A stretch of 64,000 nucleotides of DNA, taken from Pedobacter indicus (GTDB lineage: Bacteria > Bacteroidota > Bacteroidia > Sphingobacteriales > Sphingobacteriaceae). Positions 28,718 through 30,863 of the stretch are shown piece after piece (position 1 is the stretch's first letter; the number at the start of each line of letters is the position of its first letter). The translations under genes and the position numbers were made by a program. The stretch lies in assembly GCF_003449035.1 (NCBI RefSeq), contig NZ_QRGB01000001.1, forward strand, positions 1,240,001 to 1,304,000, given 5' to 3'. The notes beneath the pieces are model-generated. The model did no database searches. It saw only the letters and a program-made list of their open reading frames with translations, and was not told the DNA's origin.

Positions 28718-29905
28718 ATGAAGACAATAGACGATATAAATTTCTCAGGTAAAAAAGCACTGATCCGCGTCGATTTCAACGTGCCATTAGACGAACAGTT
28801 CAACATTACGGACGATACCAGAATCAAAGGTGCGTTGCCAACAATTAAGAAAATTCTTGATGACGGAGGGGCTGTTATTTTAATGTCTCATTTAGGTAGA
28901 CCGAAAAATGGACCGGATAATAAATTTTCGTTACGTCATATTGTCAACCACCTCTCGGATGCATTGGATCTTCAGGTTCAATTTGCAGATGATTGTGTCG
29001 GAGAGCAAGCAAAGGAGAAAGCCGCTGCCTTGAAGTCGGGCGAAGTGTTGCTGCTAGAGAACTTGCGCTTTTACGGAGAAGAGACAAAAGGCGATGCCGA
29101 CTTTGCAAAAAAATTGGCTGAACTCGGAGATGTATATGTAAATGATGCCTTTGGAACCGCTCACCGGGCACATGCATCGACTGCCATTATCGCTGACTAT
29201 TTTCCGGAAAATAAATATTTTGGGTACTTGATGGCAGCTGAATTGGAGAACGCGAAAAAAGTACTGGAAGATGCCGAACGACCTTTCACTGCAATTATGG
29301 GAGGGGCAAAAGTGTCTGACAAGTTGGAACTGATAGAAGCTCTTCTAAGCAAGGTTGATAACTTAATTATTGGTGGTGGTATGGCCTATACCTTCGTGAA
29401 AGCGCAAGGTGGCGAAATCGGCAACTCCTTAGTTGAACTTGATAAACTGGACCTGGCACTTGAGCTGATAAAGAAAGCGGATGAAAATGATGTAAATCTT
29501 GTTTTGCCAACGGATGCGATTATCGCGGACGAATTTTCAAATGATGCACCACATTCTCCAGGGCCGAATAGCACCATAGCGGCAGACAAAATGGGATTGG
29601 ATATCGGTCCTGAATCTGCAGAGCATTTCGCTGAAATTATCGGTGCTTCGAAAACTATTCTATGGAACGGTCCAATGGGAGTTTTTGAAATGGATAGCTA
29701 TGCAAAAGGAACCCGGGCTGTTGCCAGTGCTATCGTAGCAGCAACGGAACGAGGTGCCTTTTCTCTGATCGGCGGTGGTGACTCAGCAGCGGCAATCGCT
29801 AAATTCAAGATGACTGAACATGTGAGCTATGTAAGCACCGGTGGTGGTGCATTGTTAGAATACATGGAAGGGAAGGAATTGCCAGGCGTAAAAGCTATCT
29901 CCTAA
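28718..29905 (+). CDS. pgk: Phosphoglycerate kinase
   Basis: 395 residues. It makes ATP from 1,3-bisphosphoglycerate. Signatures are [36 protein letters not shown] and the nucleotide-site [12 protein letters not shown]. The ATG is preceded by AAAGGA. A very strong terminator follows. Confidence 0.96.
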
Positions 29906-29962: not shown

Positions 29963-30013
29963 AAAGGACTGTCTTTTTTCTAGTGAACAGAAAAAAGACA
30001 GTCCTTTTTTTAT
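29963..30013 (+). terminator. Very strong terminator after pgk
   Basis: A perfect 18-bp stem (29963-29980 with 29990-30007) with a 9-nt loop, followed by a T run. The stem contains GGACTGTC/GACAGTCC. The 9-mer ACAGTCCTT (29998-30006) recurs in the repeat array about 100 bp downstream. Confidence 0.93.
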
Positions 30014-30085
30014 GGGTTTCGCTACAGAACTTGTTTTGAAATTGCTCTAAAATGCTTCTGGATTTCTGGAACACTTCTGCTAATT

Positions 30086-30185
30086 AAACAGTGGTCTAAC
30101 AGTGGTCAAACAGTCCTTGAACAGTGGTTTAACTGACCTCTTACCACTGTGCAAGGACTGTTAAATCACTGTTAAGTCACTGTTC
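30086..30185. repeat. 11-bp-phased ACAGT array with inverted half (pgk-mraZ spacer)
   Basis: Four forward ACAGT cores start at 30088, 30099, 30110 and 30121; four inverted ACTGT cores start at 30146, 30157, 30168 and 30179. All steps are exactly 11 bp. Together they form 42-bp arms (35 of 42 positions complementary, some mismatches allowing G-U pairing) around a loop of about 16 nt. The innermost 20 bp match with one mismatch. The spacer 29906-30395 holds no gene; the rest of it is the pgk terminator, this array and the mraZ control region. Confidence 0.85.
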
Positions 30186-30306: not shown

Positions 30307-30350
30307 GTGGTGTGGAAAACTTTTTTGTGGGGGAAAGTGGGAGAAAGTGG
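30307..30350 (+). promoter_or_regulatory. Candidate MraZ operator: in-phase GTGG repeats
   Basis: GTGG occurs at 30327, 30337 and 30347 with exact 10-bp steps (two of them as AAAGTGG), and again in phase at 30307. MraZ proteins bind short G-rich direct repeats spaced about one helical turn upstream of their own gene. The last repeat overlaps the expected -33 region, which fits autorepression. Confidence 0.7.
30311..30319 (-). promoter_or_regulatory. DnaA-box-like 9-mer upstream of mraZ
   Basis: The minus strand reads TTTTCCACA, a full match to the relaxed DnaA box TTWTNCACA. The same 9-mer occurs twice between ftsA and ftsZ. Confidence 0.4.
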
Positions 30351-30366
30351 AAGAATTTTATACTTT

Positions 30367-30395: not shown

Positions 30396-30863
30396 ATGAG
30401 TTATTTCCTCGGCGAATATGAATGCAAGCTAGACACCAAAGGTAGGATGGTGTTGCCGGCCGCGCTCAAAAGGCAAATGCCTGATGTTGAGCGGGAAGGG
30501 CTTGTTGTGAACCGGGGATTGGAAGAACATCTGGTGATTTACACTCGTTCAGAGTGGAATAAAATCATGGATGAACTCAGTAAGTTGAATCAATTTGAAA
30601 GGAAGAGTCGTGAGTTTATCCGCAAGTTTATGCGGGGTGCTACTGAGTTGACGTTGGATGCTGCTGGTCGGGTTTTGATTCCGAAGGCGTTGCAGGCTTA
30701 TGCAGGGATTACATCGGAGGTGGTTTTGGCAAGTCAGTTTGATAAGATAGAAATCTGGTCGAAAGCGAAATATGATGAGCAATGGGAGGATGAAGGTGAT
30801 GATTTTGCGACGTTGGCTGAAGAAGTTATGGGAAATTTGAGGAGGAAGGAAAATGAACAATGA
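30396..30863 (+). CDS. mraZ: Transcriptional regulator MraZ
   Basis: 155 residues with two SpoVT-AbrB-like swapped-hairpin domains: DTKGRMVLPAALKRQ (about residues 13-27) and DAAGRVLIPKALQAYAGI (about 88-105). It is the first gene of the division/cell-wall cluster and is expected to repress it by binding the GTGG repeats just upstream. Its 3' end overlaps rsmH by 11 bp. Confidence 0.95.
   Translation: MSYFLGEYECKLDTKGRMVLPAALKRQMPDVEREGLVVNRGLEEHLVIYTRSEWNKIMDELSKLNQFERKSREFIRKFMRGATELTLDAAGRVLIPKALQAYAGITSEVVLASQFDKIEIWSKAKYDEQWEDEGDDFATLAEEVMGNLRRKENEQ

Follow-up and report, generated by a model that had tools for sequence, protein, structure and literature searches.

The array located between pgk and mraZ is one copy of a dispersed intergenic element in which four to six tandem 11-bp units (YR-AACA-core) are followed by a 21-bp centre and then by three or four units in inverse orientation. 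We see an even chance that it represents a solo copy of a double-stranded DNA recognition array dispersed in Sphingobacteriaceae, the master copy of which belongs to a gene encoding a DUF6266 protein. The features surrounding the array in the window, i.e., the whole analyzed stretch of 64,000 nucleotides, are listed in the table.

Features of the pgk–mraZ region in window coordinates
Feature	Position	Strand	Remarks
pgk, upstream neighbour	28718–29905	+	395-aa ORF; syntenic in A. bauzanense
pgk intrinsic terminator, outside the array	29963–30007	+	terminator-like hairpin
Leader-like flank	30037–30086	+	common to copies L075 and L077 of the same genome; BLAST
Forward arm (purer), four 11-bp units AACAGTGGTCT AACAGTGGTCA AACAGTCCTTG AACAGTGGTTT	30087–30130	+
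21-bp centre AACTGACCTCTTACCACTGTG	30131–30151	.	holds the ninth unit (30131–30141) and the first inverted core (30146)
Reverse arm, three inverted 11-bp units CAAGGACTGTT AAATCACTGTT AAGTCACTGTT	30152–30184	-
mraZ, downstream neighbour	30396–30863	+	155-aa ORF; 88% identical in A. bauzanense

The original prediction described eight cores in an 11-bp phase, and these were recovered with every step exact: ACAGT at 30088, 30099, 30110 and 30121, and ACTGT at 30146, 30157, 30168 and 30179. The count was incomplete, as the 25-bp gap separating the two core halves contains a ninth, degenerate in-phase unit, AACTGACCTCT, which had been overlooked. The resulting layout, in which a 21-bp centre separates four forward from three inverted units, is that of the other copies; the family consensus of the centre, read on the other strand, is AACAGTGGTAAAAGGACTGTT. 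The claim that the array is too regular for chance is upheld: with one mismatch allowed, the two-unit pattern AACAGT-N5-AACAGT has six matches in the window, all inside the array, against 0.23 expected, and none of 100 shuffles reached six. The 42-bp arms (30088–30129 and 30142–30183) are complementary as described, with 34 of 42 Watson-Crick pairs rather than the 35 given before, or 37 when G-U pairs are counted, and the folding z-score of the array is -9.25. There is indeed no T run 3' of the array, and the sole terminator-like hairpin found near it is the pgk terminator, the stem of which includes GGACTGTC/GACAGTCC and thereby an ACAGTCC word as in some array units, possibly by chance. On the 5' side of mraZ, three GTGGGN-like repeats at 10-bp steps (30327–30355) form the usual MraZ box, which is conserved in Albibacterium bauzanense.

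To assess the distribution of the element, the window's own genome (G000, 3.47 Mb) and that of A. bauzanense DSM 22554 (G001) were searched; all counts given for Albibacterium cover these two genomes. A three-unit pattern yielded 24 matches in G000 and none for the control, and a looser pattern and a sequence profile agreed on 13 intergenic loci in this genome, while the profile located 28 loci in A. bauzanense, falling into two subfamilies. The genome-wide search for copies suggested with the original prediction was thus positive. The prediction was to be given up if close relatives showed no conservation, no other copies existed and substitutions ignored the 11-bp phase; copies do occur elsewhere and respect the phase, but the pgk–mraZ position itself is not conserved.

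The unit of the first subfamily is AACAGTGGTYR and that of the second AACAGGGNYCA. Once oriented, every copy of the first subfamily reads [AACAGTGGTYR]n, usually followed by AACAGTCCTYR, then the centre AACAGTGGTAAAAGGACTGTT and the inverted units. The 29 copies align without a gap over 120 columns, with a mean column identity of just 75%. Typically one arm is close to perfect, whereas the degenerate arm follows its own recurrent consensus (CTGTACATCTTCTGTT in several copies); this indicates common ancestors for the copies and not separate decay of each from a perfect palindrome. Twelve A. bauzanense loci, recorded as decayed copies in the first profile scan, proved on inspection to be the intact second subfamily, with the centre AACAGGGGCAATATGACTGTT and the same centre geometry.

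By simple ORF calling, all 41 Albibacterium copies are intergenic, lying between convergent (15), tandem (16) or divergent (10) genes. A Pfam scan of 20 neighbours in G000 and 10 in A. bauzanense returned an unrelated mix with no transposase among them, and few neighbours are common to copies of the two genomes, which, together with the empty syntenic pgk–mraZ spacer of A. bauzanense, speaks for mobility. Several copies share sequence beyond the array. The window copy matches L075 at 90% over 92 bp from window position 30037 and L077 at 85% over 79 bp, and the G000 leader TTAACTTGTTCGAGAAG is almost confined to element copies within that genome. In A. bauzanense, the second-subfamily solo copy L264 and the DUF6266-linked copy L270 carry an identical 33-bp leader, which ties solo copies to the DUF6266-linked one. 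Three further G000 copies (L071, L079 and L081) share a more extended flank (about 230 bp at most in total), which terminates in the hairpin-like sequence GGTTAATTTTTGTTC; this is perhaps a longer form of the element. GC skew over 20 sampled blocks was too noisy for placing the origin and terminus.

The same layout with other unit sequences is found in at least three more genera of Sphingobacteriaceae. The search for these arrays used a generic motif, AACA repeated four times at 11-bp intervals, for which control matches were zero in almost all genomes, G469 being the notable exception. G018 contains seven loci built from AACAGGGTRYT units; one array apiece, composed of different units around a 21-bp centre, is present in G445 and G462; G559 carries a near-perfect array, AACAGGGGGTT-AACAGGGGTATTACCCCTGTT-AACCCCCTGTT; and G004 has one array with the unit AATAGTGGGTT. 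Across these lineages the unit sequence varies, and what they have in common is the AACA word (AATA in G004) together with the 11-bp step and the 21-bp centre.

The only pair of copies from G000 and A. bauzanense with the same adjacent gene, L074 and L098, leads to DUF6266 (PF19781). A DUF6266-type gene lies directly downstream of an array in seven cases from six genomes and at least four genera: L074 in G000, L098 (first subfamily) and L270 (second subfamily) in A. bauzanense, L284 in G018, L281 in G462, L232 in G004, and L304 in G559, where the gene product is a distant relative scoring 19.3 bits against a cut-off of 23.4. The array is situated 5' of the DUF6266 start codon, with its gene-proximal end about 30–110 bp away, the purer arm mostly being the one farther from the gene. 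Linked arrays account for 1 of 13 in G000, 2 of 28 in A. bauzanense (one per subfamily) and 1 of 7 in G018, and G004, G462 and G559 each gave a single array, which is linked; the exception is G445, which has an array and no DUF6266 gene within 3 kb. The DUF6266 survey comprised the loci found via arrays and 2.06 Mb (59%) of G000. This portion of G000 yielded one further clear DUF6266 gene and one weak relative, both array-free (L366, 9322–9948 and 12199–12948, at about 2.50 Mb of G000:C1), which indicates that DUF6266 genes are few; with a handful of them per several thousand genes, chance adjacency at the lone arrays of three genomes and in four more cases is, by estimate, very unlikely. The array-free G000 paralogue sits on a long branch of its own, separate from the Albibacterium proteins linked to arrays, and the proteins of L098 and L270 are 55% identical though their array units differ. 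The N-terminal 50 residues of DUF6266 proteins are net basic (+5 to +8). Searches found no relatives of known function, no DUF6266 in viral and plasmid reservoirs and, in the literature searched, no papers naming the family; a single-sequence structure model reached a pLDDT of 36 and was unusable.

The pgk–mraZ site itself is not special. The gap–pgk–mraZ synteny is kept in A. bauzanense, where the pgk–mraZ spacer consists of a terminator and the MraZ box and the array is absent, which indicates that the array is unrelated to pgk or mraZ. The comparison of this spacer across species, advised in the original prediction, went against a role for these two genes, and an operator of the division cluster was rejected, as the A. 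bauzanense spacer has mraZ and its box and no array.

Constraint is seen at another site. L086 of A. bauzanense has an orthologous copy on an IMG/VR contig (L174); the M16 peptidase next to it is 89% identical between the two. Of 89 array positions, 82 (92%) agree without gaps, including 47 of 47 in the pure arm, whereas the 150-bp flanks show no better alignment than shuffled sequence and the peptidase gene differs at 60 of 148 fourfold sites (41%). As judged from this one orthologous pair of sequences, the contrast implies that the array is under constraint. Both species have their unit variants in one and the same order (GGTTG, GGTCA, GGTTG), making ongoing homogenisation an unlikely cause of the identity. 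All seven substitutions fall within one half of the array. A tRNA-Leu gene adjoins L086, and the IMG/VR contig has a prophage (L174, 1–6100; L086, 2757–2840), apparently integrated at this tRNA-Leu next to the conserved array.

Considering the linkage pattern, with one linked gene per subfamily in a fixed orientation, we hypothesize that the reader of the array is DUF6266 itself or a DUF6266-specific factor. The array would act as double-stranded DNA, providing a cooperative head-to-tail binding site in which one protein occupies each 11-bp unit, or helical turn, on each arm, from both sides of the centre. The copy before the DUF6266 gene would be the master copy, serving autoregulation or as the origin of the others, and solo copies would be duplicates of the array, sometimes with a leader of about 20–35 bp, placed into intergenic sites; some of them may be retained since the protein still uses them. 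The basic N-terminus lends weak support to DUF6266 reading the array, and DUF6266 may bind or move the array. Together, DUF6266 and the phased arrays point to an undescribed pair of DNA element and protein. A more far-reaching version, which we advance tentatively and consider somewhat doubtful, is that DUF6266 founds a novel class of proteins that would bind specific DNA sequences, or mobilise them, and polymerise along 11-bp-phased mirrored arrays, with lineage-specific unit codes, a master array before the gene and solo arrays kept by the host, independent of REP/RAYT, MITE/IS and known operators. Several observations weigh against DUF6266 as the reader: the presence of at least one array-free DUF6266-like gene in G000, the unlinked array of G445, the poor tracking of unit type by DUF6266 similarity (as in L098 and L270), and the restriction of orthologous-site constraint to one locus pair. 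The proposal gives DUF6266, a family without known function, a concrete and testable candidate DNA partner, and the element is a dispersed repeat defined by a constraint on helical phase, not by sequence. If DUF6266 reads the arrays, the units and proteins from several genera would form a natural series for unit-code recognition; if it also moves them, this would be a route of palindromic-repeat dispersal besides RAYT.

The chief alternative to DUF6266 as the reader is a tandem-binding regulator of the OmpR/PhoB type. The arrays would then be operators of, e.g., an OmpR/PhoB-family response regulator, with the DUF6266 gene as one target and the solo copies as regulon members or architectural sites, a reading we regard as possible but rather unlikely. 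The head-to-tail half-sites at 11-bp steps, present in all 29 copies without a gap over 120 columns, are also a feature of PHO boxes, and the reverse arms contain TGTTTA-N5-TGTTTA, which resembles a PhoP box. Three of the seven DUF6266-linked arrays have a TAnnTTTG-type -7 element nearby, and purifying selection on the L086/L174 array also agrees with an operator. Phase and constraint thus fit the multi-site operator on one DNA face that was originally offered, but not one serving the division cluster, given the array-free A. bauzanense spacer and the 15 of 41 copies between convergent genes. However, at least nine units in inverted halves far exceed the usual operator, both halves change together between subfamilies beyond the tolerance of one regulator, the pgk–mraZ site is not conserved, and the convergent copies and unrelated sampled neighbours do not correspond to promoters of a coherent regulon. 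PHO and PhoP boxes usually have two to four half-sites in promoters of such a regulon, whereas the arrays have 8–10 units in inverted halves at functionally unrelated intergenic sites; the PHO box is described as a pair of 7-nt repeats separated by 4 nt (PMC3131613). A transcribed hairpin (attenuator, terminator or small RNA) acting at DUF6266 and elsewhere, also among the original suggestions, would account for the strong fold and for both arms changing together between subfamilies, yet it is highly improbable. Pairing of a copy's own arms was compared with pairing between arms of different copies in three registers and was not higher (e.g. 27.7 versus 28.4 of 42) within a subfamily; this absence of arm co-variation, i.e., of compensatory changes, argues against a selected RNA hairpin. 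The L086/L174 substitutions are confined to one half and hence uncompensated, many copies have strongly unequal arms, all gene orientations are represented among them, and the array has no Rfam match. With no T run, no Rfam family and no co-variation, a terminator or RNA element was rejected.

A MITE-like palindromic repeat, purely selfish or mobile in the past, without host function and spread by some transposase, with the DUF6266 gene as a frequent passenger, also seems improbable, though less so than the hairpin. Its dispersed intergenic copies, lineage-specific bursts, common leaders and lack of a host theme among adjacent genes are as expected of such a repeat. On the other hand, no direct repeat at a fixed offset (target duplication) flanks the copies, although unsharp boundaries could hide variable ones, no longer relative with the same ends was found in the genome, and a MITE was rejected on the missing fixed duplication and the absence of a transposase among the sampled neighbours. 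Solo copies of such a repeat would be expected to decay, yet the L086/L174 array is constrained. No match to the RAYT/Y1 transposase (PF01797) was detected in G000 or A. bauzanense, whereas five other family members do match, so a REP with its RAYT was rejected as well; the term "REP-like element" used originally holds in the broad sense of a dispersed intergenic palindromic repeat, but not for REPs proper. Plasmid iterons are usually 17–22 bp direct repeats at a replication origin; they share with the arrays near-identical phased units upstream of a gene for a dedicated DNA-binding protein (a role DUF6266 would fill here) and a system-specific unit sequence, but the arrays are chromosomal, mirrored and dispersed. 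With REP/BIME and RAYT the arrays have in common dispersed intergenic palindromes, lineage-specific families and a protein gene beside a copy of its own repeat. REPs, however, are 20–40 bp long, GTAG-tagged and linked to Y1 transposases (PMC3733652), whereas the arrays are about 100–120 bp long, phased and linked to DUF6266, and the 29-copy alignment has no conserved GTAG (or CGTC) tag at the end of a 20–40 bp palindrome. The BrickBuilt MITE of Porphyromonas gingivalis (PMC4596501), likewise from Bacteroidota, is similar in having intergenic copies (19 of them), leader segments and a tandem minisatellite in its interior. Its 23-nt direct tandem repeats, bounded by terminal inverted repeats of the IS5 type, contrast with 11-bp units in inverted halves, for which no IS ends were evident and no fixed target duplication was found.

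Across 84,980 species, a three-unit pattern matched mainly tandem repeats of 11 bp that are unrelated; to count as a relative, an array therefore had to show both the mirrored layout and the 21-bp centre. Outside Sphingobacteriaceae, mirrored arrays were observed in the uncultured bacterium AlinenLipids bin-4377 (L137, L146 and L163) and in a Bacteroides sp. MAG (L138 and L141), with units resembling AACAGTAGTYG or AACAGTGGTTG; they are possibly the same kind of element. Long plain 11-bp tandem arrays without a mirrored half in Chitinophagales 33-2 (L159 and L143), Nitrososphaeraceae (L160) and a viral contig (L165) are probably unrelated minisatellites. In G469 alone, the reversed control pattern (ACAA at 11-bp steps) gave 31 + 7 matches, representing another 11-bp-phased repeat family.
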